From positions 1 through 50,414 of the forward strand of contig JAOMOG010000009.1 of the NCBI GenBank assembly GCA_028353405.1: DNA of 50,414 nucleotides, written 5' to 3'. The notes beneath the pieces are model-generated. The model was not told the DNA's origin, made no database searches, and saw only the letters and a list, made by a program, of their open reading frames with translations. Of this stretch, positions 15,501 to 50,414 are shown piece by piece. A program made the position numbers and the translations under genes. This stretch comes from Candidatus Poseidoniaceae archaeon (lineage in GTDB: Archaea > Thermoplasmatota > Poseidoniia > Poseidoniales > Poseidoniaceae). How positions within the stretch are numbered: position 1 is the stretch's first letter; every line of letters begins with the position of its first letter.

Positions 15501-18500
15501 CCGGGCAGTCATTCAACGTCTCTGGTAGAGTCGTTTCGGATAACGGAAGTGGCTTAGAACAAAGAGATGGCACAGATTTGATGGCCAATATATTATTCAC
15601 ATTAGATGGAAATCCAACAGAATTCACAGTTGCAGATGGATCTGTAATGACCGGTGGTTTCTGGAATGCAACAATCTCCTTGAGTGAAACATTCATTGCA
15701 GGAAACCATACCATTGAAGCATCGTATGTTCCTAATGTTAATTTCTACATAGGCTCTGTTGACAATACCACCTTCGATAGCCGTGGATATACAACATTGG
15801 TATTCATCAAGCCATCAACCGATGGCCTAGGTCAACCTTCTCTAAACGATAGAACAAACCGTGGCGATAATGTTTCGTTACAAATTCTATTGCGTGACAA
15901 TACCGGTGAAAGCGTTCCTCAACAAGCGATAACAGTAGAAATCTTTGGAACTAATATCAGTGCAGTATTCACTACTGCAGAGAATGGAACTGCCCTTGGA
16001 ATCTTGAATGTTCCAAGCAATCTATCGGTTGGTCCTGCAGATCTTATAGTTACATTTGGTGGAATCCCTGGTTCGACTGGATTATTGGGTAGCAATGCGA
16101 CAACACAATTTGCAGTATTAGCTGAAACCAATTTAACGATAACGGAAAGCCCTAGTTCGCTTACCGCTGGTGATGCATTCACAGTAAATGGTACGCTACT
16201 AGATGACCTTGGATTACCACTCTATGTCAATGGAGTTGAATCCTTAGCTATCGTCCATCTTTTGGTGGATGGCATACCGGTATCAAGTGTTGAAACCGAT
16301 GCAATGAGCGGAGCATTCTCCCTGAGTTGGGTCTTACCTGAAGATACAAGTGCAGGAGCACACCAAATCGAAGTACGCTTTACCGGTGGTAGAGATTGGG
16401 TTGACCCAATTGGAGTAGGTGACCCTGCTAATCCAGATTACTATCATCCAAGCAATGATGTTGTAGCATTCAATGTCAGTGTTCCAACTAAGATTCTACT
16501 GCTTACTCCAACAGGCGATGTTGACCGAGAAGACAGTATGACTATCCAAGGAAGATTACTAGATCTTGTTGATGCACCGCTCTCCAATCTGACAATAGAA
16601 ATTTGGCTTGATGGAAACTGGTTGACAAATGTTAGCACCGATGTAGATGGAATGTTCACAGCAGTGCACGCAGTTCCAGCAGATGCGAATTTAGGTCCAT
16701 TGTCACTTGAAACTAGATTCACAGGTACGACGTTCTTTTTGCCAAGTCAAGAAAGCGGAACTTGGAATGTATTCAGTAAGGTTCTGGTTACAGTTGAAAT
16801 GCCGAGTCCAGTTGCAGTTTCACAAAATGTTTCGATAACTGGTTCAGTGGTTGATAATCAATTGAATCCAATATCTGGACATCAAGTTGAACTGAATGTA
16901 GAGGGAGTTCTGGTAGCAATCGTAACCACAGATGCTCAAGGAGAATTCTCATATGATTGGACAATACCAGATATATTCTCATTCGGTAACCATACTATGG
17001 ATGCTATTTCTTCTGCTCAAGGCTTCTATCGCTCCAATACTGGCAATACGACCTTCTTCTTAGCACACCGCTCGGATGTTACTCTGATATTTGATGATGG
17101 AAGAGATGCTACCCGTGGAGATTCATGGGCACTATCTGGAAGGTTGTTTGACATTGATACGGTAAACAGAGATGGCCTTGAAGGAATGATGCTAAGCATT
17201 ATTCTCGATGATGTAGAAGTTGCAACCACAACTACTGATGATGCTGGTGTTTGGAGTGTAGTAATTCCAGCAACAATGGAATTAACAAGAGGTGAACACA
17301 CCTTCTCAGTAAGTTTCGCAGGAACTAATGCCCATCTTGAGGCATCGACTAATGCTATTGCAATTGTTTGGTCTGATATGGTAATTAATATCGACGAAAC
17401 ATCATCTAAGATCGTTACACGCTCCGATGGTACATTTGCACCAATTGTTCTAACCGGTTCAATTGCAGAAATTGGCGGTCAAGGAGAAGTCTTTGAAAAT
17501 CTTGTTCTTAACATAGGAAATGGAACAGACTGTGTCAATAATCGCGAGGGTGCAAGTTGTATTGGTGGCCTTCTAATCACTTGGTTAAACGGTAACTTCT
17601 CAGTTAGTGGACCTGCTCCATCATGGATGGAATCTGGTTCACAATGGATTTCAATAGATGCGCCAAGAAATGATTCATTATACCTGAATGCAGAAAGTAT
17701 CTCACAGATATTATTTGTTAAGGTCAATGCAGACTTCAGTATTGCAATTGATAAAGTTGTAGAAGATAAGGATGAAGATATTTCTGGTAATGTGATAATC
17801 ACTGCTCAAGATACTGGTGCAGGAATACCGGGAATTAGTGTAACGATTTACCTCTATGATGGAAACAATACTCAATTGGGTAGCCCGTTACAGAAGATTA
17901 CAGATGAAAATGGTCTTGTCAATATCGAATTCAATTCAGACCCACCATACGGTGATGCAAGTCGCTGGGGTGAAGTCTCTATGGACATCATCATCAACGA
18001 TCCACGTCTAAGTGATGAAAGCCTTGCAACATTCGCAGCAATCCGCCAAGATGGATTCGCACCTGATTATTCATATGCAGACGATGTGCAAGAAGTATCT
18101 AAGTGGGCATATGTGTTAATGCTGTTAGTAGCAGCCTTAGGAGCGGTAGGTGTTGTATTGTACAAGAGGAAAAAGGCTGCTGAACTAATGGCAGATGCTG
18201 CTGAAATCTTCGCATATACTGCTGAATTACTAGCAGCGGGCGATTCGATTAGAGAAGCAATTTTCAACTGCTACCAAGATTTGTGTTCCTTGCTACAACA
18301 GCGAGACTTCTTGCGACGTGACTTTGAAACAGTTCGTGAGTTCGAAGTTGCTATTCGTCAAGCTATGCCTGGTATCTCCAATGATGCACTCGTTGCTATG
18401 GACAACACCTTCGAGATGGCAAGATACAGCCGCGAAGAGATGGGTGGAGTGCACCAAGAGGCTGCAGTACAAGCATTGAATCGTATGAGCGCTGAGATAT

Positions 18501-31113: not shown

Positions 31114-32667
31114 TCAAAGTGGAATGTTCCCGTGCTTTCTTGCAGGCCTCAATTCTTCTTTATCCATTAGCATCTCAAGAGAACGAATTAACTTGCTTCG
31201 AGTTTCTCTAGGTTCGATGACATCATCCAGATATCCCAGAGCCGCTGCCTTGTATGGATTTGCGAAAGTATCATTGAAATCTTCGGTTAATCTCGTTCTC
31301 TCTTCTTCTGCATTACGCGAGTTTGCGATGCGCTTGCGATGAATAATTTCTACAGCCCCATCAGCACCCATGACCGCTAGTTCTGCATTTGGCCATGCGA
31401 TATTGTAATCACCTCGGATATGCTTACTCGACATAACGTCGTAGGCACCACCGTATGCCTTTCTCAATATCACAGTTAGTAGTGGTACAGTAGCCTCTGC
31501 ATATGCATACAATAATTTTGCACCGTGACGAATAATGCCACCCCATTCTTGGCTAGTGCCAGGTAAGAATCCAGGGACGTCTTCCAAAGTTAGAATTGGG
31601 ATATTGAAAGCATCACAGAATCTGACAAATCTTGCGGCTTTATCACTCGCATCAATATCCAAGCAGCCAGCAAGGAACTTTGGTTGATTTGCGACAACTC
31701 CAACTGTATTTCCACCTAAGTGTGCAAATCCGATTACAATATTCTTTGCCCAATCAGCCTGAACTTCTAAGAATGCTCCATCATCAACGATTTCATTGAT
31801 TACGTCAATTACATCGTAGGGTTTGTTGGATTCAGTTGGAATAATAGTATCCAATTTCTCACAGACCCTATCCTTTGGATCAGATGTTTTTCTAGTCGGT
31901 GGTTTTTCCATATTATTCTGAGGGAGTAAATCTGCTAATTCTCTTGCAAGGTGTATTGCTTCTTCATCACTTACTGCTGTGAAATGCGACACACCGGATT
32001 TACTACCGTGCGTCATCGCACCTCCAAGGTCTTCAAAAGAAACTTCTTCATTTGTCACCGTCTTGATAACTTCAGGTCCGGTGATGAACATGTGCGCAGT
32101 TTGGTCGACCATGATTACGAAGTCTGTTATCGCAGGAGAATATACTGCTCCACCAGCACATGGCCCCATTATTACCGAAATTTGAGGGATGACTCCAGAG
32201 GATCTTACATTTCTGAAAAATATTTCAGCATAACTTCCTAGACTAGCTACTCCTTCTTGTATTCGAGCTCCACCTGAATCATTCATTCCAATAACAGGTC
32301 TACCTGTTTTTAGAGCCATATCCAATACTTTACAGATTTTCAGGCCATGCATTTCTCCTAGAGAACCGCCATAAACGGTGAAATCTTGGGCAAAGGCAAA
32401 TACTTCGCGTCCATTTATTGTTCCATGGCCAGTTACTACTCCATCACCTGGAATAACGTTCTTCTCCATTCCAAAATCTTTGCATCGATGTTCAACAAGA
32501 GCATCCATCTCTTGGAATGAACCGTCATCAAGGAGTAATTCCATGCGCTCACGTGCAGTCAATTTGCCACGATTATGCTGGGAATCAACACGTGCTTGGC
32601 CGCCGCCTGCTTCACTTCTTGCCTTACGATTACGCAGGTCCTTGAGTCGTTCCTCAGTGGATGCCAT
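31114..32667 (-). CDS. pccB: Acyl-CoA (propionyl-CoA) carboxylase carboxyltransferase subunit
   Basis: This subunit transfers the carboxyl group from biotin to acyl-CoA. It has 517 residues, the usual size. The crotonase-like N and C halves are both present: [21 protein letters not shown], then [11 protein letters not shown] and [12 protein letters not shown], and in the second half [14 protein letters not shown] and [13 protein letters not shown]. The overall pattern is that of propionyl-/methylmalonyl-CoA carboxyltransferases. The ATG at 32667 is preferred over an in-frame TTG at 32679, as the family begins at this point. It diverges from the methylmalonyl-CoA mutase subunit gene, so propionyl-CoA is the likely substrate; acetyl-CoA as an extra substrate cannot be excluded. 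Confidence 0.93.
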
Positions 32668-32717
32668 AGGCTTCGCCAATTATCTCTAAGAAAACTCCCT
32701 CCTTATGCGTTGCGACA

Positions 32718-32725
32718 ATATATAG
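32718..32725 (-). promoter_or_regulatory. TATA box of the carboxylase operon
   Basis: The minus strand reads CTATATAT in the divergent gap between the transferase and mutase genes. A transcript would begin near 32695, giving a leader of about 30 nt. Confidence 0.5.
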
Positions 32726-32839
32726 TCAAAATGTACCTTGTATGACTCCTTTGGCCGGTTTCATATCCACACCTAAATCACTATGATTACATCTTTCGGA
32801 TGGGTTTTGTTGATAGGCTAAGTCCTACTCGGTTTTGAC

Positions 32840-33283
32840 ATGGGTGCAATGATTCGCGTAGTAGTTGCAAAACCGGGTCTTGATGGTCACGACCGTGGAG
32901 CTAAGGTTGTAGCTCGGGCATTAAGAGATGCAGGACACGAAGTAATCTATACAGGATTACGTAGGACGGCGAGCCAAATAGTTGAAACAGTACGTGATGA
33001 GGATGCCTCATTTCTTGGATTATCCTCACTTTCTGGTGCACATAGTCATTTATTTCCAAAGGTTTGCGAAGAACTCCGTAAATTAGGATTGAATGATGTG
33101 ATCGTATTCGGTGGAGGGATTATTCCTAAAACCGATAGACAAGCCCTATTCTCTTGTGGAATCAAAGCCATTTTTGGGCCAGGAACTTCTACTGCAGAAA
33201 TACTTAGTTTCATTGAAATTGCAAGCGAAAAAGATGGAATCGGCGTAGGGGAATCAAGCGATTGGTATTGGCAGGGTGTTTGA
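32840..33283 (+). CDS. mcmA2: Methylmalonyl-CoA mutase, B12-binding subunit
   Basis: This is the small cobalamin-binding subunit of a two-chain methylmalonyl-CoA mutase, which turns (R)-methylmalonyl-CoA into succinyl-CoA. It has 147 residues. The base-off/His-on motif is DGHDRG (D15, H17, G20). [12 protein letters not shown] and FGGGIIP mark the remaining cobalamin-fold loops. Archaeal mutases are commonly split into a large catalytic and a small B12 chain; the large chain is not in this window. The next gene, the MeaB chaperone, begins at the base after the stop. Confidence 0.93.
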
Positions 33284-34189
33284 GTGAATAGCGACATTGT
33301 GTTGGCCGCAAAGGACGGTTGCCGCAGGTCATTAGCACGAACTCTCTCAGCGCTTGAAAATAACACACTGGATATTGATGATGCACTATCAATGCTAGGT
33401 GAAACCAATACTGATTCTTCTCAACAATCCGATTGGAGTATAATGGCAATTACGGGCGCCCCTGGAGTTGGTAAATCCTGTCTGGTTGACAAAATAATTT
33501 CTCAATGGGCAAGTCAAGGTAAGAAAATTGCATTACTAGCAGTTGACCCATCTTCTTCTAGAACTGGTGGGGCGTTATTAGGAGATCGAGTTCGCTTATC
33601 AGTAGTCGATGATATTATGCTAAAAGAGATGGTTTATGTTCGCTCGGTCGCTACTCGTAAGTCTTCTAGTAGCGTTCCAGCAGTCGTTTCCGATATGGCC
33701 AAATTATTACTGGCGCTTGGCTGGAATAAGGTAGTGATTGAAACTGTTGGCGCAGGACAGTCGGAAGTTAGATGTGTAGCAGTTGCAGATAGAATCGTAG
33801 TGGTTGAAGGTCCGGCAAGAGGAGACGGGATTCAAGCAGAAAAGGCAGGATTATTAGAATTAGCAGATGCTGTAATTGTCAATAAATCTGATATTGTAGG
33901 TGCTAGAAAGCATGCAGACGAAATTAAAGAATCTTTTGAGTTGGGCGAGGGGCAATCTCCTCCCGTATTATTGACCTGTGCGTTGAATGGTGACGGATGT
34001 CAATTTGCCTCAGATGTATTGCTTAATTTACAGTCTACAGGACGTTCCTCAAAGGCTAGATGGCGTGAGCGCCTGTTGTCTAGTCTTGAACAAAAAATAC
34101 TACAGAATCCACACTTAGATGAGATATTGTTACTATTAGCATCTGGTTCTATAGATTTAGATGAGGCGATTAAGAACTTAAATAATTGA
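33284..34189 (+). CDS. meaB: MeaB/ArgK-type G-protein chaperone of methylmalonyl-CoA mutase
   Basis: This GTPase gates cobalamin loading and protects the mutase. It has 301 residues. Walker A is GAPGVGKS (58-65). VDPSSSRTGGALLGDRVRL is the MeaB signature. Walker B and switch regions include VIETVGAGQSEV, and NKSD is the guanine-specificity motif. The start is a GTG that abuts the TGA of the B12 subunit gene (TGAGTG), so translation is probably coupled. The C-terminal dimerisation extension is shorter than in many bacterial MeaBs. Assignment is firm. Confidence 0.93.
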   Translation: MNSDIVLAAKDGCRRSLARTLSALENNTLDIDDALSMLGETNTDSSQQSDWSIMAITGAPGVGKSCLVDKIISQWASQGKKIALLAVDPSSSRTGGALLGDRVRLSVVDDIMLKEMVYVRSVATRKSSSSVPAVVSDMAKLLLALGWNKVVIETVGAGQSEVRCVAVADRIVVVEGPARGDGIQAEKAGLLELADAVIVNKSDIVGARKHADEIKESFELGEGQSPPVLLTCALNGDGCQFASDVLLNLQSTGRSSKARWRERLLSSLEQKILQNPHLDEILLLLASGSIDLDEAIKNLNN

Positions 34190-35104: not shown

Positions 35105-36886
35105 ATGTGCGGTATTGGTGGTATGTTCGGAAACCCCGATTCTGCTATCATAGAGCGAATGAATTGGTTAATGCGCCATAGAGGTCCAGATGGTAATGAT
35201 GTTTGGAGTGATGAAAATATAGCACTTGGACACACTCGATTGGCGATTGTTGATGTCAGTGGAAGCGATCAACCTATATCTGCTCATAGTGGAAATATCT
35301 TAATTGCCAATGGAGAGATTTACAATCATCTCAATATTCGAGCAAATCATAATCACTATCCATGGACTACAAATGGTGACAGTGAGTCTATACTTGCTCT
35401 GCATGAAAATGCATTAGCAACAAATCAAGGTGCACTATCTGCCAAACAGCATGCGAAATGGATCTCCAAACTCAATGGAATGTATGCTATAGCGATATGG
35501 AATCCTAGAGATAAGCAGTTGCTATTGGCTAGAGATCCCATGGGAATCAAACCATTGATGAGGACTGAGGTTGATGGTAGTCTGCTATTTGCAAGTGAAG
35601 CCAAAGCCCTTAGGGCGCATGAAGGGCATACCCCCCAAATCGATGAACTAGCATTGGTTGCAAGGTTGGCATGGGAGTACCCGTTAGATGGAACTACATT
35701 ACTGAAGGATGTTGCACAAATAAGGCCAGGGACTGTTGAAACCTGGAGTCTTGACCACAATGGTTGCGCAGTATTAACTGGCAAAGCAACAGTGGAGAAA
35801 CAGAAGGTTGAACCTGCAGATACATGGAATCCTGATTTAGAGGCTAGTAAGTTACTGGAATCTTTCGTTGTCAGTGTTGAAGAGAGATTGATGTCAGATG
35901 TACCTGTGGGTATAGTTCTTTCAGGCGGACTTGATTCTAGTTTAGTCGCCGCAGTTGCCCATGAAGCAGCTCAAAGAAGCGGTAATCCAGTTCCAGCATG
36001 TTGGACGGTTGCGGAAAGTGAAGATAACCCTGACTGGCAAGCGGCTGAGTTAGTAGCATCAAGCCTTGAATTAGAACATCACCAACATATTTTACAAGAG
36101 GATTCATTTGACAAAATGTTGCCTAATTTAGCCTGGCATGGTGAAGATTTAGATGTGACAGTCCTATTCTTCCAGCCTTTATTTGAGAAGATGTCACAAT
36201 CGGTAACAGTCGGATTATGTGGTCAAGGAGCGGATGAACTGCATGCAGGTTATCCACGCTACAGAGATCTTAATCATCATTCTAGCGTTATTCAGTCTCG
36301 CTTTGATATGATGAGTCACCCATCGAAAGCAATCATTGAAAATGGTCAATTACCAATTGGCGATCATTATTATTCAAATGACCACTCAGCAACAGCTCAC
36401 ACCTCTTCATTAGATGACTTCTTACAATTCGAATTAGATAGTGGACAGTTGAGTAACTTCCAATTACGCTTAGTAGATAGACATTCTATGGCCCATTCTG
36501 TTGAGGTTAGAGTTCCATTCCTTGGAAAGTCGCACCGCCAAGCATCTCATAAATTACCGATGCAGTGGCGCCTTCCACCTTCATTTGAAGAGAAAATAGC
36601 ACTTCGTCGTGCTGCTGATTTAACCAAGTTACCAGCTGAGATTGTACGCAGAGAAAAATTGCCAGCAGGTACGGCAACATCTCCTATGTTGTTGCAGAAT
36701 ATGTTAGAACAATTGGATGGAAGGGCGCAGCAAATAATGAGTAAGTATCCACTTATTAGCGGTGCTTTCAAGGACCAACCGGATTTGGCAATAGGTTTGG
36801 GATTGTTTGAAGCAATGCACATCCTAGATGGTGGTAGAAGTAAGCGTCCAGGAACAGCAATTGATTTGCTAGATGAGGTGATATGA
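35105..36886 (+). CDS. asnB: Asparagine synthetase (glutamine-hydrolysing), AsnB-type
   Basis: This amidotransferase would make asparagine from aspartate, ATP and glutamine. It has 593 residues. The nucleophile Cys2 is exposed in MCGIGGMFG, which fixes the start at 35105 despite an open frame from 35036. The glutaminase half contains RHRGPDG and ANGEIYNH. The synthetase half has the PP-loop SGGLDSS (273-279) and GQGADELHAGYPRYRDL. The usual GEGADE/LFAGY reads GQGADE/LHAGY here. The gene overlaps the following glutamate-cysteine ligase by ATGA, so the two proteins are made together. That raises the possibility of a substrate other than aspartate. Confidence 0.88.
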   Translation: MCGIGGMFGNPDSAIIERMNWLMRHRGPDGNDVWSDENIALGHTRLAIVDVSGSDQPISAHSGNILIANGEIYNHLNIRANHNHYPWTTNGDSESILALHENALATNQGALSAKQHAKWISKLNGMYAIAIWNPRDKQLLLARDPMGIKPLMRTEVDGSLLFASEAKALRAHEGHTPQIDELALVARLAWEYPLDGTTLLKDVAQIRPGTVETWSLDHNGCAVLTGKATVEKQKVEPADTWNPDLEASKLLESFVVSVEERLMSDVPVGIVLSGGLDSSLVAAVAHEAAQRSGNPVPACWTVAESEDNPDWQAAELVASSLELEHHQHILQEDSFDKMLPNLAWHGEDLDVTVLFFQPLFEKMSQSVTVGLCGQGADELHAGYPRYRDLNHHSSVIQSRFDMMSHPSKAIIENGQLPIGDHYYSNDHSATAHTSSLDDFLQFELDSGQLSNFQLRLVDRHSMAHSVEVRVPFLGKSHRQASHKLPMQWRLPPSFEEKIALRRAADLTKLPAEIVRREKLPAGTATSPMLLQNMLEQLDGRAQQIMSKYPLISGAFKDQPDLAIGLGLFEAMHILDGGRSKRPGTAIDLLDEVI

Positions 36887-38115
36887 TGAATTATGTACAT
36901 GAATACTCGCAAATCCTTGAATCTAAGAGAGAACAGATCACTGCATGGATGACAAAGAAGCGCAGCGAAGTTCCAATTCCGATTTACGGCAGTGTCGATG
37001 TAAGGGATGCTGGATGGAAAGTGGCTGTTGTTGATGCGAATCATTTTCCAGCTGGATTTAACAACGTTTCAAAGGAGGATGAACCACATCTTGCAGAACT
37101 CCTAAAAAATCATATTTTGAGGATTAAATCCGAATGTAAATGGGTTCACTTGTATCCTGAATCTCATACTAGAAATGCAGGTTATATTGAGAATGTGGCG
37201 ACTATACAGAGTTTACTTATCCGTTCAGGCTTTAGATGTACGGTTGGTTCACCGGAATTATCTGCTCATGGTTCATTAGCGGGAATTTCAGGTCCGTTGC
37301 ATTTGTCAAGAGTTGAGTTGAAACTTGAAAATGGAATCGAGGAGTTATTTGTGGAAGGTGAAAGACCTTGCTTAATCTTGCTGAATAATGATCTTACAGA
37401 AGGAATAGTGCCTGGATTATCTGCTAATAATGTAAGCCCACCACCGAGCATGGGATGGCATCGGCGTAGGAAATCAGAACACTATGTTTGCTTGCAAAAA
37501 TATGTTGATGAGATGGCACAATTGCTGGAAATTGATAGTTGGCATTTAATGGCGAATTGGTTTGTTTCAGAGAATAAATGTCTTGATGAAGAGAATTGTA
37601 GGGTGGCGTTGGCAAAAGAAGTTGACGAATTTATTGAAAATATAAGAGCCAAATACGAATCACTTGGAATAGAAAGAGAACCTGTCGTTTTTGTAAAAAA
37701 TGATAGAGGAACATATGGGCTTGGTATTATGGCGGTTAAGGAAGGGAAAGAATTACTTGAACTGTCTAATAGAAAGATGAAGAAACTAATGTATTCTAAA
37801 GGCGGTGCCGATGTTGAAAATTTCTTAATTCAAGAAGGAGTTCCAACTCTTCTAACAGAAAAGGGTGGAGCGCCGGTTGAACCTGTTGTTTATTTGGTCG
37901 ATGGTGAGGCTGCTTCTTGGTTCTATAGAATAAATGATAAGAAAGGGGACATGGATAATTTAAACTCGCCTAGTGCAGAATTCTTTGATTCATCAGAAGT
38001 TGGTCACCTCTATGGTGAACATGCAAAAGGATGGCATGCTTTAGTAGCAGAATTATCGATGTTGGCAATGGGTTCAGAAGCCATAAAATATGCTAATGAA
38101 TCATCGAATCAATAA
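36883..38115 (+). CDS. gshA: Glutamate-cysteine ligase, GshA 'ferrooxidans' type
   Basis: This enzyme would join glutamate and cysteine with ATP, the first step of glutathione-type thiol synthesis. It has 410 residues. Features I recognise from the proteobacterial/cyanobacterial GshA group first described in Acidithiobacillus are YGSVDVRDAGWKVAVVDAN with FPAGFNN, LLNNDLTEG, PPPSMGWHRRRKSEHY, and the ATP-grasp-like FVKNDRGTYGLGIM. The stretch EPVVYLVDGEAASWFYR also fits. It is translationally coupled to asnB. No glutathione synthetase (GshB) is in this window, so the product could stop at gamma-glutamylcysteine or be used by another enzyme. Recognition is from motif memory, not a search. Confidence 0.75.
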   Translation: MMNYVHEYSQILESKREQITAWMTKKRSEVPIPIYGSVDVRDAGWKVAVVDANHFPAGFNNVSKEDEPHLAELLKNHILRIKSECKWVHLYPESHTRNAGYIENVATIQSLLIRSGFRCTVGSPELSAHGSLAGISGPLHLSRVELKLENGIEELFVEGERPCLILLNNDLTEGIVPGLSANNVSPPPSMGWHRRRKSEHYVCLQKYVDEMAQLLEIDSWHLMANWFVSENKCLDEENCRVALAKEVDEFIENIRAKYESLGIEREPVVFVKNDRGTYGLGIMAVKEGKELLELSNRKMKKLMYSKGGADVENFLIQEGVPTLLTEKGGAPVEPVVYLVDGEAASWFYRINDKKGDMDNLNSPSAEFFDSSEVGHLYGEHAKGWHALVAELSMLAMGSEAIKYANESSNQ

Positions 38116-38128
38116 TTTGATTCAAGTT

Positions 38129-38434
38129 CTAATCATTGTTGGGTTTTTGATCATCACTGGTGGTGATTGGTTCATCGCCCATTCCAACTATTTCATAATT
38201 TGAAGGGAATAATGCGATAGCAACTGCGGCTATTAGGGCTAGCAGTCCCCATCCAAACATTTTGCGAACAAATAGCATTTCAAGGGATAATGCACATAGT
38301 AATAGGCCACCAATATTGGAAGTCCATACCAATGTTTTGAATGTTCCAAGGCTGACGCCAGGAGTTCCCTCTTTGCGGTATGGTCCGAATTCTCCTCCGA
38401 ATCTTTGGGCTTCTTCATTGGCATCTTTTGTCAT
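38129..38434 (-). CDS. Small two-helix membrane protein, last gene of the respiratory operon
   Basis: This is a 101-residue protein with a polar N terminus (about 40 residues), two adjacent transmembrane helices (about 32-54 and 60-77) and a short polar tail. I do not recognise the family. Its start has TGAGGA upstream, which embeds the ferredoxin stop codon, so it is cotranslated with the ferredoxin. It ends 13 nt from the convergent gshA gene. A small accessory subunit of the respiratory complex is plausible from context alone. Confidence 0.7.
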   Translation of the reverse strand: MTKDANEEAQRFGGEFGPYRKEGTPGVSLGTFKTLVWTSNIGGLLLCALSLEMLFVRKMFGWGLLALIAAVAIALFPSNYEIVGMGDEPITTSDDQKPNND

Positions 38435-38443
38435 GGTAATTCC

Positions 38444-38776
38444 TCACAAATCAATCATTGTTATCGCATCTGTAGGACAGGCGAGTACGCATAATCTGCA
38501 GCCAGTACACGCATCGCGAATTATCTTGGCCTTACGATTACTTTCAACTTTGATGAATTGACTGGCCATCTCTACTTTGTATAGTTCGATGGCATCATCA
38601 TCACAAACGATTGTGCATTGGTCGCAGCCAATACATTTCTCTGGAGTCACATATGCAACAGTTCCTTCTCCACCCTTTGTATTAGCTCGCTGTTCTCCAC
38701 GTTGACGATTTAGAGAGGTGCGAATGGCCAAAGCCTCAGCCGCTCGTCTCTTGGCCAACTCGTCACTGGTGGTCAT
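38444..38776 (-). CDS. Ferredoxin with two [4Fe-4S] clusters
   Basis: This is a 110-residue protein. About 45 basic N-terminal residues precede two Cx2Cx2Cx3C motifs: CIGCDQCTIVC and CTGCRLCVLACP. The second has the usual Pro; the first has Asp instead. A 15-residue insert between the motifs is longer than in typical 2[4Fe-4S] ferredoxins. It overlaps the end of the upstream membrane-protein gene by ATGA. It is a likely soluble or peripheral electron carrier for the cytochrome b/Hdr-like fusion in this operon. Confidence 0.9.
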   Translation of the reverse strand: MTTSDELAKRRAAEALAIRTSLNRQRGEQRANTKGGEGTVAYVTPEKCIGCDQCTIVCDDDAIELYKVEMASQFIKVESNRKAKIIRDACTGCRLCVLACPTDAITMIDL

Positions 38777-39468
38777 ACTACCACCTCGTCCGCCCCTTCT
38801 CTTTCAAACTTGGCAACACTTAGGTTGACTAATAAATCTCCAACACAATAGAATGCACCAACTAATAGAGGTGGATTCCAAGCGGTTAATCCCGTCCATG
38901 GTACTTCGTTGGCCCATGTCCAATTAGCCAAGTGTGTGCCCCACAATTCCATTGCTAAGGCCGCCCAAGCCATAGCAGCATATAATCGAGGTTGAGGGCC
39001 CCATTTTGTGAATGCGAGTACGAGCACTAGGAGGAATAGTGCAGATGTATCCCCTCCACTGTATATGCCATAAGCGACGAGAGGAATAAATGGGGTCAAG
39101 CAAAGCATAGCGAGGTTTTCCCTCATCTTATTGGCGATAATCCTGCCAAGATCAAATAGGAAATAATGACCGACTGGAACGAATAGAGGCATTAGTCCAC
39201 GTTGGTATTCATAGATTAGCCAAACTTCGCTGAAGAATAATTCCATTGGAGTGGCAAATGCCAACACTGTCAGCATTTCTATCCGTTCTTTTCGAGTGGT
39301 CTTGTAGAAGATATATCCAAATATGGACCAGCACCAAATGTTGACTGGCCATTCAGCCCACTGGTCTGGAATAATTCCATTCAGACCAGTAGCACTGATG
39401 TACAAACCGATGCCTATTGTAAGTACATACAAAGCAGGTCTGTTCATGAATGGCGCTAGTGACTGCAC
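38773..39468 (-). CDS. Polytopic membrane protein in the respiratory operon
   Basis: This protein has 231 residues and about seven transmembrane helices. Histidines sit within or next to helices in PVGHYFLFDLGR and MELWGTHLANW, which could bind a haem or a quinone, though this is only a possibility. I do not recognise the family. The start is GTG 39468 or ATG 39447; neither has a good ribosome site. It lies 47 nt after the cytochrome b/Hdr fusion and overlaps the ferredoxin by ATGA, so it is probably part of the same system. Confidence 0.7.
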   Translation of the reverse strand: MQSLAPFMNRPALYVLTIGIGLYISATGLNGIIPDQWAEWPVNIWCWSIFGYIFYKTTRKERIEMLTVLAFATPMELFFSEVWLIYEYQRGLMPLFVPVGHYFLFDLGRIIANKMRENLAMLCLTPFIPLVAYGIYSGGDTSALFLLVLVLAFTKWGPQPRLYAAMAWAALAMELWGTHLANWTWANEVPWTGLTAWNPPLLVGAFYCVGDLLVNLSVAKFEREGADEVVV

Positions 39469-39515: not shown

Positions 39516-42329
39516 TCAAGCCTTGATTTGGTCTAGTGAATCAGTATTTGCAGCAACTGCTTCAGATTTCTTTGCATCAACTTGTTTTGCTAAGAATGTA
39601 ACAACATCAAGAATTTCAATATCTGCATACTTTTCATCACCTTCAAACTTCAAACACTCAAAGTGAGCAACACATTTAGGACATGATGTAATCATCGTAT
39701 CTGCTCCAGTAGCACGGATTTCTTCCATACGAGATACACGAAGTGAACGAGCATCTTCGTTACATGACATCATGCTTGAAACACCACAACACATTGCATC
39801 TTCTCCACTGTGTTCCATCTCAACCAAATTAACTCCTTCAACGGCAGTAAGCAACTCACGTGGTTCATCATAGACTCCCATTTGACGACCCAATCTACAT
39901 GGATCATGGTAGGTTACAGTAGTATCTTCAGTACTCAAGTCCATATCAAACCCTTGTTCTGTTAAGTATTCAGTTGTGTGCATTACCTTGACTCCCTCTA
40001 GTTCATAATCTCGAGCAAAGGTTCTGAAACATTCTGCACAAGAAGATACCAAGGTGTCTATTCCAGATTCCTCAATCTTGCGTTGATTATAGGCCTTTAG
40101 TTTTTCAAATACTTCATCAAGACCTTGCCACTTTTGGTCGTGGCCACAGCACTTTAGGAAGTCTCTTCCAAGATATGAAACTTCATTGCCCATCTCTTCA
40201 AACAAAGTGAAAGCAGCGGTTGTTGATGCTCCTAAATTCATCTCACCATCATTGACATGTGAAAATACCATCTCTTGGTCGAGATAATCAACACACCCAG
40301 GATAGTATCCTACCTTGGAAGTAATTGGGTAATCTTCAGTTGTGATAAAGTCAGCATCAGCTTCTTCCTCTGCTTCAGCAGCAAGAACTGCCTGAAGGAC
40401 TGTGTGCGGTATCTCTGCTTGAGATGCACCAACGATTAGTCCACGCCTAATATCGACATAAGAGTCGTAATCAACAAGTTGCGGACAGGCGTTAGTACAA
40501 GCAGAACATGTCAAACATGAATACATCGGGACACCATCATCCTCATTATTCCAAGAATTATAAATGATGTTTAATTTGTCTCCACCAGTGAATAGGCGTA
40601 CAGGGCAAGCATCGTCACAAAGGTCACAACCGTAGCACTTGTTCATCTCAAACTCATATCCACGAGCCATGTATCTTAGTAATACGAATACAAGGGCACC
40701 GAATGTTAGACATGGAATGAACATTGCATAGGTTAATTTTGCATCCATTGATTTAGGATTTCTATGGTATGATGGATTTTCAATAGGAGAGAACTTACCA
40801 TTTCCAAGAGCCATATCCTCAGAACTTGAAAGGTTGACGCTCGTTCCTGCAAGACTCTCGTGTGCATCCTCGTTCCAAACCAATAGTGGTTGGAAAGAAG
40901 CGATATTCATAGAAGTTTCAGTGGTAATAGAGGAATTTTGGGCAAGTAGACCAGTTGCCTGGACAGTCATTTGATAGTCATAGGTCCCTACTTTGAGTTC
41001 AACTGTTGCTCCATCACAGTTAGTGAACGATGAAACGGTTTTTCCAGATGAATCAGTAACCGTAAAAGTTGAAGTTAACATATCTGCAGTAGATAGTTCA
41101 TTGATCTTTCTTTCACTAGATCTATACTCACAAGCCATGTCAGTGGTAATCGTTTCCACAGTCTTGTGATGCCCATAAGGGAAATATGTTGTATCTTCAG
41201 TAACTGTAAATGAGCCTGCAGCAATCCACTCAGCATCTCCAGAGAATGAATCTGTAACCGATGCAGCATTTATTCCATTAGCAGCATCTTGATGCCCATT
41301 GGCATCTCCAAAATCAGTAATAATATATCTAGCGGGTTGATACAAATTCCAGTCAAGCCAAGCAGTAGTCGGTACTATCTCTGTAGAAGACCAACCATGC
41401 GAATCGGTAAATTCATTGGTAGAATGAACATGAACATCAACTGGTTGTGACCTCATCTCTTCAAGTTCACCGTAATCAGCAATTGTAAGCAATCCCTTTG
41501 CATCCCAGAAACCATCATCATAAACATCCCAAGTGGAAACTGATATTGCAGTTGAAACCATCAATGCGCCAACAAGAATTCTTTTGCCATGCGCTGGAGT
41601 GAAGCCAGCACCCCAAGCCTTTACCATCATAGTTCGAGTCACGAAATATATGACAATCCATATTAAAATCCCAGTTAATACCCACGGAATGGCATTGAAT
41701 GCATCCGCAATCCAGGGTTCTCTTACACCACATAACAGATCTCCATGAGAATCCAATTTACAAAAATCTGATCTATTATTACCATATAACTGTAAGAAAA
41801 TATTAATCGAAAAGACAGAGATAAACCATACATGCGCAATATATACAACTCCTGCACTTGCAAACCAAGGGTCTTCTACAGGTCTCTTTTCACGACCTCC
41901 AAGCAATGGTGGAAGTACTAGAATTCCTACAGGGACTCCAGTAAGAGCAGCTCCCCACCATGCAGCGTTCCAAGGGAACGAAGGTTGACCAAATATGTCT
42001 CCCAAGAATCCAGTAGGTACGGAAAATTGCGGTAGATACTCTCCCCAGCGAAGGTAACCATATGAGAATAATACATACCAATCAGGGAAAACGAATCCTG
42101 CTTGAGCATATGGATCAGCAGCACTGTGCAATGGTGGTGGAATTAGCCAAGAATAGAATAATAATACCGCGGCCATAACTGAAAAGATAAGAATGTCGCG
42201 AAGAACTTCATGTGGCCAAAAAGCATGGCCCATTCGTGTACGCTTTCTTTTTTCATCAACACTTTGCAAGTTTTCCTTCTCATCCATGTAGGAGGAAGCA
42301 ACTCTTCCAAGATTTTCTACTAATCCCAT
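39516..42329 (-). CDS. Fusion: cytochrome b subunit IV-like domain + extracytoplasmic beta domain + HdrD/CCG iron-sulfur module
   Basis: This protein has 937 residues. Residues 35-115 match the C-terminal cytochrome b domain (subunit IV), with WPHEVLRD, SAADPYA and the Qo-site motif PDWY (82-85). More helices run to about 270. A beta-rich, Thr/Ser-rich domain (about 275-530) with GTYDYQMTV follows, then a helix (about 538-556). A ferredoxin module (from C565) has CYGCDLCDDACP and CLTCSACTNACP. Two CCG domains (about 680-915) contain CCGHDQ, SSCAECF, CCGVSS and SCPKCV, as in HdrD/HdrB/GlpC. CCG modules bind clusters that handle thiol/disulfide or quinone chemistry. This domain order is not one I know from a described complex. 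Confidence 0.88.
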   Translation of the reverse strand: MGLVENLGRVASSYMDEKENLQSVDEKRKRTRMGHAFWPHEVLRDILIFSVMAAVLLFYSWLIPPPLHSAADPYAQAGFVFPDWYVLFSYGYLRWGEYLPQFSVPTGFLGDIFGQPSFPWNAAWWGAALTGVPVGILVLPPLLGGREKRPVEDPWFASAGVVYIAHVWFISVFSINIFLQLYGNNRSDFCKLDSHGDLLCGVREPWIADAFNAIPWVLTGILIWIVIYFVTRTMMVKAWGAGFTPAHGKRILVGALMVSTAISVSTWDVYDDGFWDAKGLLTIADYGELEEMRSQPVDVHVHSTNEFTDSHGWSSTEIVPTTAWLDWNLYQPARYIITDFGDANGHQDAANGINAASVTDSFSGDAEWIAAGSFTVTEDTTYFPYGHHKTVETITTDMACEYRSSERKINELSTADMLTSTFTVTDSSGKTVSSFTNCDGATVELKVGTYDYQMTVQATGLLAQNSSITTETSMNIASFQPLLVWNEDAHESLAGTSVNLSSSEDMALGNGKFSPIENPSYHRNPKSMDAKLTYAMFIPCLTFGALVFVLLRYMARGYEFEMNKCYGCDLCDDACPVRLFTGGDKLNIIYNSWNNEDDGVPMYSCLTCSACTNACPQLVDYDSYVDIRRGLIVGASQAEIPHTVLQAVLAAEAEEEADADFITTEDYPITSKVGYYPGCVDYLDQEMVFSHVNDGEMNLGASTTAAFTLFEEMGNEVSYLGRDFLKCCGHDQKWQGLDEVFEKLKAYNQRKIEESGIDTLVSSCAECFRTFARDYELEGVKVMHTTEYLTEQGFDMDLSTEDTTVTYHDPCRLGRQMGVYDEPRELLTAVEGVNLVEMEHSGEDAMCCGVSSMMSCNEDARSLRVSRMEEIRATGADTMITSCPKCVAHFECLKFEGDEKYADIEILDVVTFLAKQVDAKKSEAVAANTDSLDQIKA

Positions 42330-42348: not shown

Positions 42349-43215
42349 TCAATGTGGCTCCGCAATGCCCTGTACCCAAACAATAAACAAATGAATAATA
42401 ATCAATAATGTTACAATCACAGGTAGAATGAATACGTGAATAAAGTACATTCTTGTAACGGTCCTAGGAGTAAGTGATGTACCTCCGAATAGAGCAGTTG
42501 AGGCAATCTTTCCAATCAATGGTGATGAGTTGGCCATATTAATTCCTATAACTGCGGCGCCATATGCCAAGGAATCCCACGGGAGTAAATATCCAGAGTA
42601 TCCAAAGAAAATGGTTAGGAACATTAGTGCGACTCCGATAAGCCAGTTTAATTCACGAGGGTTTCTGTATGCACCTGTAAAGTAAACTCTACACATATGC
42701 AAGAAAACACTTGCTACCATGAAGTGAGTGCCCCAATGGTGAACTGCACGAAGGATATATCCGAATGGCAATTCGGTCATGATATATTGCATACTGGCAT
42801 ATGCAGGGGCAGGGTCACCTTCTCCACCCGGTACGTAATAAATTCCAAGAACAGTTCCAGTAATTACCAAAATAATGAATGATAGGAATGAGATTCCACC
42901 TAGGCAGTATAATGGATACCAGTACCAAATGATTCTCAACTTGTATTTTTCAGCGTGACTAAGCGGCATTTGTCTGTGCATATTATAGTAGGCACCTTTC
43001 GACATATTCCAATAGTCTTGTAATCTAAATCTAGTATCTAGCCAAGAGAACACCCAAAGGAATGATCTTTCTGCTACACCCATTTTCCCTGTTGACTCAA
43101 CAGCACGAAGAATGTCTCTACGAGGCATATCTTCTGATTCCTTGCGTAGAGTGAACGCTACAAGAACCACTACGAAGGCAATGAAGAACCAAAGAATCCA
43201 GAACATTGTTGTCAT
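42349..43215 (-). CDS. b6-type cytochrome b N-terminal half
   Basis: This is the di-haem, quinol-binding subunit. It has 288 residues: an extra N-terminal helix and about 80-residue lead, then the four-helix core. Haem ligands are His159, His173, His260 and His275. The 15-residue step between the last two is the b6 spacing rather than the bc1 spacing (14). YCLGG at C104 aligns with Cys35 of chloroplast cytochrome b6, which binds the extra haem ci covalently. Other matches are YIMTELPFG, YRNPRELNW, and GYSGYLLPWD. The C-terminal part of cytochrome b is carried by the downstream fusion. TGAGGTGA upstream of the ATG embeds the Rieske stop codon. Confidence 0.93.
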   Translation of the reverse strand: MTTMFWILWFFIAFVVVLVAFTLRKESEDMPRRDILRAVESTGKMGVAERSFLWVFSWLDTRFRLQDYWNMSKGAYYNMHRQMPLSHAEKYKLRIIWYWYPLYCLGGISFLSFIILVITGTVLGIYYVPGGEGDPAPAYASMQYIMTELPFGYILRAVHHWGTHFMVASVFLHMCRVYFTGAYRNPRELNWLIGVALMFLTIFFGYSGYLLPWDSLAYGAAVIGINMANSSPLIGKIASTALFGGTSLTPRTVTRMYFIHVFILPVIVTLLIIIHLFIVWVQGIAEPH

Positions 43216-43226
43216 TTTATTTCACC

Positions 43227-44075
43227 TCAGTCACAATATGTGTACCAATCCACATAATCTGGTAATCCTTCAATAATATCACCATTCATGGCAATTGGAA
43301 TTATTGGCAATCCTACAGGAGCAGGGCCACCGGATCTGCGAATACCTGCGTACTTGAATTTAGCACCATTGGAACGATTTGTATTTGCATTCATTTCCAA
43401 AGCAGTAGGGTCAAAACGAGATGAGTGGCAAATACAGAATAATTTAGTTCCACCTGCATCACCACCGCCAGGAATCCATGTATCTACAGTATAACGATTA
43501 GTAACTAATTGCCAACCAGGAATACAGCATAAATGTGTACACCTTGCAAAAACCATTACTAAATCATCACTAGGTAGTAATCTTGGATCTGCATCAGATA
43601 AGTCTTCAAAATGACCGACATACTTGCCAGTACCGTCATATCCTTCCATGAATTGAAATCTTGCTTTACCATTGGAAACAGGGCTACCTGCATTCTTTGA
43701 GTGGTCAACATATGTTACTACAATCGGAACTCCGTTCCAAACCCCAGCAGCCCCTGATGAACCAGTAGAACTCTTTGCAGCTTCAGCAACGAAATCCGAT
43801 TTCTTCATTACTTGCTCGTGCATTGCTCCATACCATGCTTCATCTTCACGACCCTTGGCCCAATATTTTGCAGCAAGGTCTCCACCGGTGCTACCGCTAG
43901 GTGGCAGTAATAGGGATGCAAAGCCAAGAACTCCTAGAGATGCCGCCAATACGCCGGTAGCAGTATTGAATCCATAACTAAGGAATTGGCGTCTATTAAT
44001 CAATGAATCTCCCAATGCTTGGGAAGAAGATTGTTCACCACTCGGTGCCGGTTTGAGGTCGTATTCGCGAGACAT
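43227..44075 (-). CDS. Rieske [2Fe-2S] protein with Tat signal
   Basis: This is the high-potential electron acceptor of quinol oxidation. It has 282 residues. A twin-arginine start (NRRQFLSYG, R28-R29) is followed by one anchor helix (about 38-58). Cluster ligands are C179/H181 in CTHLCC and C214/H217 in CICHSS; C184 and C216 would form the disulfide. The Gly of box 1 is Cys183, and the Tyr after box 2 is Phe221, a change known to lower the redox potential in other Rieske proteins. ATG 44075 is chosen over GTG 44084 because GGTG lies six bases upstream. It overlaps or nearly overlaps its neighbours. Confidence 0.94.
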   Translation of the reverse strand: MSREYDLKPAPSGEQSSSQALGDSLINRRQFLSYGFNTATGVLAASLGVLGFASLLLPPSGSTGGDLAAKYWAKGREDEAWYGAMHEQVMKKSDFVAEAAKSSTGSSGAAGVWNGVPIVVTYVDHSKNAGSPVSNGKARFQFMEGYDGTGKYVGHFEDLSDADPRLLPSDDLVMVFARCTHLCCIPGWQLVTNRYTVDTWIPGGGDAGGTKLFCICHSSRFDPTALEMNANTNRSNGAKFKYAGIRRSGGPAPVGLPIIPIAMNGDIIEGLPDYVDWYTYCD

Positions 44076-44080
44076 AAAAA

Positions 44081-44524
44081 TCACCAGTTGTACTCCTTCC
44101 AGTCCTTTGTATGCTCAGGTATGAATTTATTCATGCCATACTTGACAATAATCGTATCAGGTAAGACATATTTGAGATATATCATTCCCATCAACGTTGT
44201 AGTCGTTAATGTCATTGCTAAATGGAATGATAATTGTTGTTGATCCCAGCCGTTGAACAGTCCATAGATTAATGAAAAAGACCAGTAGCAACTCCAGAAC
44301 AATCCCCATACGAAGAAGAATAGTGTCAGGTATGATGCGCCCGATGGAGCTAATGTTGCACTGATAATTGAGCCTGGCTCAGCAGGATTGAATACTCCAT
44401 GATCGATTGCTTTCTGCATTTGTTCTTCAGTCAGTGAAGCATTTTCCAAAGCAGTTCTAGCATCAGCAATACTGATGTTTCCTTTTGCAACACCTCGTAA
44501 TAGGGTGGTAATTGTATCATCCAT
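44081..44524 (-). CDS. Two-helix membrane protein of the Rieske/cytochrome b operon
   Basis: This is a 147-residue protein. The N-terminal 60 residues are helical and soluble (ISIADARTALENASLTEEQ, resembling a small helix-turn-helix or UBA-like unit). Two transmembrane helices follow (about 65-90 and 98-122), with aromatic FFFVWGLFWSCYWSF. I do not recognise the family. The stop of the preceding gene overlaps its ATG (TGATG), with GAGGTGA a few bases upstream, so it is expected in fixed ratio with the Rieske protein. It is probably a structural subunit of the complex. Confidence 0.75.
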   Translation of the reverse strand: MDDTITTLLRGVAKGNISIADARTALENASLTEEQMQKAIDHGVFNPAEPGSIISATLAPSGASYLTLFFFVWGLFWSCYWSFSLIYGLFNGWDQQQLSFHLAMTLTTTTLMGMIYLKYVLPDTIIVKYGMNKFIPEHTKDWKEYNW

Positions 44525-45441
44525 CACTGGTCACCTCTCTTCATCAACTTGTAGCGAAGTCGTAACATATTACTGCGTCCCTTGTATGAGGTAGAAAACC
44601 CATATCTTAGAAGTAGGCCTGAGAACACTATTACACCGATTACAGCACTAAATCCGAGTAATCCAAGCCAATGAGCCCTTAGTGGAGCTCCCATGTCGTG
44701 TAAATCGATTCCATGTGAAGAAGGTTCAGGGGGGCTAACGTTTCCATCACCTGCAAACAAAGCTCTCGTTCCAAGGGCGATACTATCTGCATCTCCCTCA
44801 GGGAGGGCGAATAATAATTGATTCCACTTATCGTCTTCGCCAGGGAGTCCCTCTCCTGAAACCGAGTTACCGGTAATCCAGAAATTAACGCTACCTTCTC
44901 CTGCGGCAGGGGCGGTCCATGTCAAAAGCCACGAGCGATCTTCTTCGCTTGCCGAAGCGTCGGTGTGGGTGAGTGTTGTCACATCTTCTTGCCAATTTTG
45001 TAGATTTGTGCCGGCGAGCTCACCCGCACTAATGCGCATTGAAAATCCAGCGGTATAAATTCCACCGGCAGGTCCGCCGATTAGTTGCAGACGGAATTCA
45101 TATGTGTCACCCGCATTCCAAGCATATGGAACATTGTCAAGAATCACTTGGACTGAATTATCTGCAGCACCATTATGGCACAAGCAACCCTGTTTTGCCA
45201 CATCATCAATAGTCTCTCCAGCATTGGATTGTTCTCCTCCAATGCCGGTGTGATATGATGTTGCAAGGCTCGGAAGGAGCAATAGCGCGACCAGTCCTAT
45301 AAGAAGTGTAATTCTCGTAGAAAAAGAGCCAACTCGCATAGCCACACCCAAGATGTTCTTAGCGACTTGGATGGACCCCTTAAACATTGCTTGCAATTGT
45401 GATGGATAAATGCCTCGCAGTGTTGCGTTTTGAATATCCAT
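44524..45441 (-). CDS. Reeler/choice-of-anchor V-like exported protein with CxCH motif, first gene of the respiratory operon
   Basis: This protein has 305 residues. A hydrophobic leader helix is at about 43-61. A short segment with the motif CLCHNG (C86, C88, H89) and a beta-sandwich of Reeler-like type follow (WNAGDTYEFRLQL, GFSMRI, LTHTDAS, WLLTWTAPAAGEGSVNFWITG). A C-terminal helix is at about 262-284. Related proteins usually have CxxCH, a haem c site, in this place; here one residue is missing. It starts at a leaderless-type promoter and heads the operon of Rieske and cytochrome b genes. A role as an electron acceptor outside the membrane is suggested by position but unproven. Confidence 0.75.
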   Translation of the reverse strand: MDIQNATLRGIYPSQLQAMFKGSIQVAKNILGVAMRVGSFSTRITLLIGLVALLLLPSLATSYHTGIGGEQSNAGETIDDVAKQGCLCHNGAADNSVQVILDNVPYAWNAGDTYEFRLQLIGGPAGGIYTAGFSMRISAGELAGTNLQNWQEDVTTLTHTDASASEEDRSWLLTWTAPAAGEGSVNFWITGNSVSGEGLPGEDDKWNQLLFALPEGDADSIALGTRALFAGDGNVSPPEPSSHGIDLHDMGAPLRAHWLGLLGFSAVIGVIVFSGLLLRYGFSTSYKGRSNMLRLRYKLMKRGDQ

Positions 45442-49392: not shown

Positions 49393-50414
49393 TTAATTAT
49401 ATTTAGGCCAAAATAAATCTTCACCCTCGTCTAGATTCAATAGCTCACCAGAAATAGTTTTTATTTGTAGTTGGCCCTTTTTATCTAATCCCACAACCTC
49501 ACAAACCTCAGTTCTATAGATTGGGTTGCCCAATGAAATTACAGTGTTGTTAATTTCTTCTAAAGTGATTTTAAGCAGTTTAGTAGAGGAATAATTGGGG
49601 ATATTGTTCCTTTGTTCAAGCAGTGAGGATAAAGCCGCACTAATCACCGATGAAAATTGGCTAAAATCAATATCTAAATTCAGACTTTGATTTAGTGTTG
49701 CGATCCTAAAATCTTGCTTTTCTAGGGGTTGTGCAGAAAAAATATTAGCTCCTATTCCAAGAACCAAACTTATTTCTGATGCAATGCTTCTCCCTTCAAG
49801 CAAAACACCAGCTACTTTGGACCATTCAGACGATTCATTTTGCAATAGGATATCGTTTGGCCACTTGAGTCTAATTCGTTCATGGCATTCACTGTTTGAA
49901 ATTGCTCTTATTGTGTCAACAACAGCAAGCCCGCCAATCAATTGTAGGTCGGAATGAACCAGTTCGCTTTTTCCATCGTGTACAATCCAAGAACCTGCAA
50001 ATGCATTCGTTTCGCTAGTCCAAGTACGCCCTCGCCTCCCCTTGCCTTCAAGTTGTTTTTTGGCCTGAATGGAGGTGCCAATTATACCTCCACTATCGAG
50101 CAACATCTTGTTTGTTGAATCGACTTCATCAAGTATGCTAACCGGGCAATTTGAGAATGGCTTCCAAATTGCATATACGGTCAATTCTTCACCATCTTCG
50201 AATTGCTTGCTTGAAAATTCACGACATGACAAACCATTTTGAAGGCAAATTCTTTTCGTATTGTTTCCTCTTTGATTATTTGAAACTAAAATAAGAGCCA
50301 TTCCAGTGGTGGTCATCAATTTCCCAGTGGATATCATTTTCACTAGTCGTGAAACAAGTCCAATTGAGTCGGTGTCTAGTAATGCTGCTTCTTCAAATGG
50401 GCCAAGCACCTCAT
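49393..50414 (-). CDS. birA: Biotin protein ligase joined to the end of a HemK/Mtq2-like methyltransferase, cut by window edge
   Basis: The C-terminal 245 residues are a biotin-[acetyl-CoA carboxylase] ligase: EVDSTN, GKGRRGRTW (about 122-130), KWPNDI (about 182-187), VAGVLLEG and VLGIGANI, then the C-terminal SH3-like domain. It would biotinylate the carrier protein encoded at 30492. The first 90 visible residues do not belong to BirA. They read like the last part of a class I methyltransferase (LLDTDSIGLVSRLV, GMALILVSNNQR, then a final strand LTVYAIW), as in HemK/Mtq2-type glutamine methyltransferases. No stop is met before the right edge, so the methyltransferase core probably lies beyond base 50414. 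The GTG at 50409 is unlikely to be the true start. Confidence 0.85.
   Translation of the reverse strand, partial: EVLGPFEEAALLDTDSIGLVSRLVKMISTGKLMTTTGMALILVSNNQRGNNTKRICLQNGLSCREFSSKQFEDGEELTVYAIWKPFSNCPVSILDEVDSTNKMLLDSGGIIGTSIQAKKQLEGKGRRGRTWTSETNAFAGSWIVHDGKSELVHSDLQLIGGLAVVDTIRAISNSECHERIRLKWPNDILLQNESSEWSKVAGVLLEGRSIASEISLVLGIGANIFSAQPLEKQDFRIATLNQSLNLDIDFSQFSSVISAALSSLLEQRNNIPNYSSTKLLKITLEEINNTVISLGNPIYRTEVCEVVGLDKKGQLQIKTISGELLNLDEGEDLFWPKYN

Follow-up and report, generated by a model that had tools for sequence, protein, structure and literature searches.

We analysed a 50,414-nucleotide stretch of DNA (contig JAOMOG010000009.1, assembly GCA_028353405.1; hereafter the window) from a Candidatus Poseidoniaceae archaeon, focusing on a gene that joins half of a cytochrome b to an iron-sulfur module. 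The archaeon belongs to Marine Group II (MGII; Poseidoniales), ocean archaea that are widespread and abundant and of which we know no cultured isolate; its assembly comprises 1.38 Mb and is 66% complete. The fusion gene (39516..42329, minus strand; 937 aa) begins with ATG, contains no internal stop, and encodes a cytochrome b C-terminal half of the subunit IV type, a predicted extracellular domain, a Fer4 dicluster and a CCG-CCG pair. It closes a row of five tightly packed minus-strand genes running from 45441 to 39516, which encode a 305-aa anchored protein, a 148-aa membrane protein, a Rieske-type protein, a b6-type cytochrome b and the fusion protein. After 47 bases there follow genes for a 231-aa membrane protein, a ferredoxin-type protein (FD) and a 101-aa membrane protein.

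The genomes compared are mostly metagenome assemblies and come from a single phylum. Family-1 counts refer to 80 kept loci, the best 80 of 308 stretches encoding a relative of the fusion protein, and its cysteines were compared in 82 family-1 rows and eight rows from the 12 family-2 loci read. For the second order of the class Poseidoniia (family f3, which we take to be MGIII under GTDB naming) 18 loci were read, and f22 and f25, further families of the same phylum, are represented by one genome each. Gene content was counted in a sample of 60 Poseidoniia genomes.

Residues 1–270 of the fusion protein (41520..42329) form the subunit IV-type membrane domain, with PDWY at residues 82–85. A Pfam scan of the window's protein did not detect this cytochrome b part. 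We ran a profile (A2), built from 17 N-termini of fusion protein relatives, against PDB, and 42 of the 43 matches listed were cytochrome b C-terminal halves or b6f subunit IV, with best scores of 8.9e-8 (cytochrome b) and 8.7e-6 (subunit IV); the sole other match listed was an ABC transporter at 0.38. The f25 relative by itself matched b6f subunit IV at 3.4e-10 and PF00032 at 7.8e-10. PDWY was kept in 80/82 family-1 rows (in the remaining two this part is missing), 8/8 family-2 rows, 5/5 second-order rows, f22 and f25. Residues 290–520 (40770..41462) constitute a predicted beta-rich extracellular domain with an AlphaFold2 (AF2) pLDDT of 72–91 per block of ten residues, apart from one block at 63; this domain is conserved less and is missing in the aligned f3, f22 and f25 relatives. 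The HdrC-like Fer4 dicluster with eight cysteines occupies residues 561–617 (40479..40649) and is followed by CCG domain 1 (C679, C727, C728, C764 and C767; 40005..40307) and CCG domain 2 (C811, C847, C848, C883 and C886; 39660..39917), the dicluster and the two CCG domains (3.7e-25) both being recognised by Pfam. The 8 Fer4 and 10 CCG cysteines were invariant in 82/82 family-1 rows and 8/8 aligned family-2 rows. Judged by sequence, the Fer4 dicluster and the two five-cysteine CCG domains are an HdrC+HdrB unit. The first-pass annotation had described one uninterrupted 937-codon gene carrying a subunit IV-like domain with PDWY, a 2[4Fe-4S] module and two CCG domains, and this description was borne out in each part.

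Six hydropathy peaks were found in the fusion protein (residues 46–64, 126–144, 161–179, 213–231, 251–269 and 532–550), and the Fer4 dicluster begins about 10 residues past the last of them. The loop holding PDWY carries one Lys/Arg among 62 residues and the next outer loop three among 29, as against three among 14 and three among 15 in the inner loops. Hydropathy and loop charge together support a topology with PDWY outside and the Fer4-CCG arm inside the cell.

All 80 kept loci matched the fusion protein over nearly its full length, and 78 of them held a single open reading frame (ORF) of at least 910 aa. The two exceptions were L066, whose 856-aa frame is cut at its contig start, and L064, with a 521-aa ORF although tblastn covers residues 1–933. 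A mis-assembly of two genes, which had been raised at first, is excluded because independent assemblies match at 80/80 loci. The related doubt, that relatives might lack the fusion, was refuted by its presence in many genomes, including those of f22 (789 aa) and f25 (606 aa), where the whole fusion occurs with the same cytochrome b type. Among Poseidoniia genomes, 290/292 gave some match, in some cases to an EtfD-type paralogue only. In the second order, subunit IV plus Fer4 are encoded by one gene and CCG-CCG by the following one (17/17 loci covering both, of the 18 read). The f25 genome also has a Rieske gene, and the f22 contig stops past the cytochrome b gene. The b6-type cytochromes b of f22 and f25 bear N-terminal Ig-like Big_5 domains (L142:8086-9975 and L143:788-3613). 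In a 27-row tree of arm-type CCG modules, EtfD-like proteins and other CCG proteins of the phylum, the arm-type modules formed a single clade (100/99) apart from the others included, with f25 outermost among them, on long branches and with a support of only 83/60. If the f25 placement holds, the fusion would be older than the class and would have been split in the second order.

The gene upstream of the fusion gene encodes a 288-aa b6-type cytochrome b (42349..43215, minus strand; PF00033, 1.5e-41; alignment to 1vf5_A, 9.1e-44). Its heme histidines H159/H160, H173, H260 and H275 were conserved in 88/88 rows, and its C104, which corresponds in the alignment to the heme-cn cysteine Cys35 of cytochrome b6, was present in 81/81 rows of families 1 and 2 and in 5/18 second-order loci. 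The Rieske-type iron-sulfur protein (43227..44084, minus strand; TIGR01416, 6.8e-9) combines the motifs CTHLCC and CICH with one N-terminal membrane helix by hydropathy; Pfam gave no Rieske match for it at E 1, and the two Cys and two His ligands of the Rieske box were conserved in 83/83 rows. Cytochrome b fell short of what NCBIfam requires for b6 (PRK03735, 196.3 vs 325 bits) and for ExtP, and the Rieske protein scored under the cut-off of TIGR01416 (36 vs 97.4 bits); on these scores the complex is a divergent member of the superfamily and no b6f equivalog. Further upstream lie the 148-aa membrane protein (44081..44527, minus strand; in 68/80 loci) and the 305-aa anchored extracellular protein (44524..45441, minus strand; NCBIfam choice_anch_V, 1.3e-23). 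The latter carries GCLCHN, which is a CxCH and not a CxxCH heme motif, and the CxCH, which may be a heme, copper or other site, was kept in 67/68 family-1, 6/6 family-2 and 5/5 second-order rows (78/79). This protein is a candidate p-side redox or docking subunit. No cytochrome f was recognised in the operon.

A single PF00033 cytochrome b was found in 55/60 genomes, two in one and none in four. By the coordinates listed, it abuts the fusion gene in 37/39 family-1/2 genomes of this sample; of the exceptions, G022 gave no match to PF00033, and for G050 a full fusion match was absent from those listed. Because cytochrome b is single in 55/60 genomes, the fusion-containing complex is apparently the sole Rieske/cytochrome b complex of Poseidoniia. 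Tully (2019) states that in most MGII cytochrome b and Rieske occur in the absence of a canonical bc1, and calls their complex III MGII-specific (PMC6336850). The earlier proposal that a b6f-like complex and a cytoplasmic iron-sulfur module are wired together on a single chain is upheld as a predicted architecture.

The FD block comprises the 231-aa membrane protein (38773..39468; in 67/80 loci), the 110-aa 2[4Fe-4S] RnfB-like FD (38444..38776; Fer4_21, 2.4e-14), which we propose as an outer electron port, and the 101-aa membrane protein (38129..38434; in 72/80 loci), all on the minus strand. FD scored 51.9 bits with TIGR01944 (rnfB), whose cut-off of 68.7 was not reached. RnfB without other Rnf subunits has been noted in MGII by Tully (2019; PMC6336850), and FD is the likely source of that lone RnfB. 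FD lies near the fusion gene in 71/80 kept loci; among the nine loci without a nearby FD, four have 7.9 kb of room, one has 2.8 kb and four end within about 1.1 kb. In G002, which has the same gap pattern, FD was located about 13 kb from the fusion gene. The 231 aa–FD–101 aa block is on the same strand as the fusion gene in the window's close relatives and is inverted in most of the 80 loci; in 12 family-2 loci FD and the 101-aa protein are on the fusion gene's strand, and no 231-aa homologue was matched there.

In the f22 and second-order loci read, the FD gene lies directly next to the CCG or fusion gene or overlaps it, and two dicluster parts were seen in the FD of f22. Comparison by BLAST with two reference loci showed that the N-terminus of the second-order FD is of the archaeal zinc-ferredoxin type in 8 (L137, L139, L140, L170, L175, L177, L179 and L180) and a flavodoxin in 6 (L141, L171, L172, L173, L176 and L182) of the 14 loci reaching the gene; the other 4/18 loci end before FD, and the flavodoxin row L182 is cut by its contig end before the FD part. 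The L140 FD matched PDB 1xer at 3.7e-29, the NCBIfam zinc-ferredoxin model was matched by L140 (3.8e-21), L137 (1.7e-20) and L139 (5.6e-18), all well under its 280-bit cut-off, and the L141 FD matched flavodoxin PF00258 at 7.5e-27. Ferredoxin and flavodoxin have unrelated folds and do the same electron-carrier job. A putative ferredoxin/flavodoxin port is supported most strongly by this occurrence of two unrelated carrier folds on one and the same subunit. The flavodoxin rows cluster together with one unassigned row (89/90), and this single grouping indicates a single ferredoxin-to-flavodoxin exchange. The exchange on this one subunit took place inside genus g24 and is perhaps a low-iron adaptation.

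We therefore favour, with somewhat more confidence than doubt, the reading that the arm serves complex III as a ferredoxin/flavodoxin port on its n-side, the fusion protein being a subunit IV with a covalent HdrC-HdrB-type arm. FD would dock on the arm and relay electrons between the n-side of the complex and a soluble carrier, ferredoxin or flavodoxin, by way of the Fer4 clusters, heme bH/heme cn and the Qi quinone, so that the arm would be a second, cytosolic electron port on complex III. Reduced ferredoxin supplied by 2-oxoacid:ferredoxin oxidoreductases would donate at the Qi side, the quinol formed there would be oxidised at Qo by the Rieske protein, and the whole would unite a ferredoxin(flavodoxin):quinone reductase and a Q-cycle complex in one. 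POR_N, which marks 2-oxoacid:ferredoxin oxidoreductases, was found in 48/60 genomes and in 27/27 of those of high quality. NuoD was present in 56/60 genomes and NuoF in 3/60, indicating a complex I without its NADH module; G002 has a continuous run of complex I genes, of the A, B, C, D, H, I and antiporter types. For NDH-2, a profile match was obtained in only 1/60 genomes with a weak probe. Transfer from ferredoxin to quinone is downhill, and the reverse needs bifurcation against the membrane potential; we infer that inward flow, from ferredoxin to quinone, is favoured.

Several observations weigh against a ferredoxin/flavodoxin port. The preferred direction rests on general redox potentials, and ferredoxin may already be oxidised by a complex I that lacks its NADH module. 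The 4/80 loci with 7.9 kb of room have no FD close to the fusion gene. The FDs of families 1 and 2 (110 aa in 62/71 family-1 loci and 120–196 aa in the other nine; 110–117 aa in 12 family-2 loci) have, going by these lengths, no fused carrier, and the ferredoxin link there is one of homology; for two family-2 FDs no NCBIfam model gave a match at 1e-12. Ser replaces the heme-cn cysteine in 13/18 second-order loci, so heme cn cannot be required. AF2 modelled the whole fusion protein poorly (pLDDT 55). The five-cysteine CCG sets of families 1 and 2, f22 and f25 resemble catalytic HdrB and would be unneeded by a mere relay. Finally, the sole-complex assignment was made from Rieske/cytochrome b matches, and alternative complex III was not searched for.

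With identical wiring, the port could instead work outward with bifurcation: of the electrons of a quinol oxidised at Qo, one would go to Rieske and the other would reach ferredoxin or flavodoxin via bL, bH and the arm, and ferredoxin reduction would thus be driven by oxygen respiration. For menaquinol passing electrons to a high-potential Rieske centre and to ferredoxin, the two-electron balance is near zero when the membrane potential is left out, which is compatible with such a scheme. The membrane potential, however, opposes the transfer from bL to bH, and the 2-oxoacid:ferredoxin oxidoreductases indicated by POR_N already supply reduced ferredoxin. We regard the outward direction as unlikely. 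Equally doubtful is its more general form, a complex III acting as a quinone-based bifurcating (or confurcating) machine in which aerobic respiration would make reduced ferredoxin and, reversed, ferredoxin would feed the Q-cycle at Qi.

The arm might otherwise perform thiol/disulfide chemistry, the two CCG sites reducing or oxidising a small-molecule or protein disulfide as in HdrB/HdrD and exchanging electrons with the quinone pool. Both CCG sites have five cysteines in the family-1, family-2, f22 and f25 rows, and the EtfD paper links the extra cysteine to the catalytic Hdr clusters (PMC13083937). In addition, the glutamate-cysteine ligase GshA (PF08886, 2.5e-100) is encoded at window positions 36883–38115 (plus strand) as a convergent neighbour of the complex, occurs in 24/24 family-1 genomes sampled, and lies 0.6–3.8 kb downstream of the fusion gene in 63/80 loci (of the 17 loci without nearby GshA, 13 have at most 3.4 kb of room). 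Against this, nearby GshA is convergent to the fusion gene in 63/63 loci, and the enzyme was found in only 3/15 family-2 genomes (not in the other 12) and in 0/21 second-order genomes sampled. Moreover, a CCG1 ligand is lost in 17/17 second-order loci by two different routes, C728S in 13 (in one of these, the residue at position 767 is unreadable as well) and C767G in 4. CCG2 keeps CC and CxxC there in 17/17, and C811 in the five rows aligned. This chemistry appears slightly less probable again than the outward port. Of the partners first proposed for the arm, ferredoxin gained support from the ferredoxin/flavodoxin domain on the second-order FD homologue, and the thiol/disulfide partner was weakened.

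The complex could also be an ordinary complex III whose arm is a structural or redox-sensing appendage without electron exchange in turnover, and the remainder of the complex does have the main parts of a Rieske/cytochrome b quinol oxidase; yet cluster ligands invariant in 90/90 family-1/2 rows, the short distance from the last hydropathy peak to Fer4 and the carrier domains of the second-order FD make this improbable.

Least probable is an ETF:quinone reductase whose arm receives electrons from ETF as in EtfD, since a distinct EtfD-type protein with the EtfD ligand pattern exists beside the fusion protein. ETF alpha was found in 55/60 genomes and the ETF-QO quinone domain in 4/60. The separate membrane CCG protein measured 655–729 aa in the eight genomes read (701 aa in the window's genome, L153:4687-6792) and carries CSG/CNG, CPHC and CPFC; the fusion protein has CC and CAEC instead. 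The EtfD D1 site has four Cys, with a Thr at the second C of CCG and a His in CxHC (PMC13083937), and the Ser/Asn in place of that Thr come from the EtfD-type homologues read here. In the second-order genome G001 the EtfD-type gene belongs to the row etfD-etfB-etfA, and G003, G013 and G037 each have a CCG match no more than about 2 kb away from ETF alpha. About 178 kb separate ETF alpha from the fusion gene in G002, whose genome is a single contig. No ETF genes were found among the window genes scanned, and ETF alpha had no match in the window's own 66% complete genome. An ETF role for the arm is disfavoured on account of the separate EtfD-type protein with the right ligand pattern.

Elsewhere in the window, an FtsZ/tubulin-family gene (PF12327, PF00091; 45902–46840, plus strand) lies beside the complex. 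Carboxyl transferase, MeaB GTPase and biotin/lipoate ligase-type genes at 31114–34189 and 49393–50409 suggest a propionyl-CoA/methylmalonyl-CoA route. A very large ORF of 2995 aa occupies 9545–18532 (plus strand).

As a rule, complex III works as a closed machine between quinol and cytochrome c; for b6f and its heme cn, direct wiring of ferredoxin to the cytochrome b n-side has long been proposed as part of cyclic electron flow. A ferredoxin/flavodoxin port, if real, would show in a lineage-wide complex III that the cytochrome b n-side can connect directly to ferredoxin or flavodoxin, and would bear on electron balance in organisms without an NADH module on complex I. It would also account for the report of MGII with a lone RnfB and with cytochrome b and Rieske in place of a canonical bc1 (PMC6336850). 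We found no description of this fused complex in the open-licence literature searched. The label "new type of respiratory complex", proposed in the first-pass annotation, is fair in the narrower sense of a new variant of complex III.

With cytochrome b6f the complex shares the split into b6-type cytochrome b and subunit IV, PxWY, the heme histidines, the Cys35 equivalent and the Rieske ligands; in contrast to b6f, its fused subunit IV adds helices, an extracellular domain and a cytosolic Fer4-CCG-CCG arm, and FD is linked to it. With HdrD and HdrB-HdrC it shares an HdrC-type Fer4 dicluster followed by two five-Cys CCG domains, but the arm sits on cytochrome b subunit IV rather than on HdrE or HdrA, its CCG1 is degenerate in the second order, and the fusion protein scored 21.9 vs 345.15 bits with the NCBIfam HdrB model TIGR03288, far under the cut-off. 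EtfD (9ojn), a membrane ETF:menaquinone reductase, likewise bears a membrane domain, Fer4 and a CCG arm on one chain and provides the closest solved arm, whereas the fusion protein has a different membrane domain and no Thr/Ser and His ligand pattern. DsrMKJOP, Tmc and Hmc combine a cytosolic CCG protein with a quinone-reactive membrane part, formed by NarI-like or NrfD-like subunits, and periplasmic redox subunits; the likeness lies in the cytosolic CCG side, and unlike the fusion complex they have no Rieske/cytochrome b core, while matches of the fusion protein to DsrK, TmcB and HmcF were far below cut-off. Finally, FD matches the ferredoxin part of RnfB, with the difference that FD sits with complex III.

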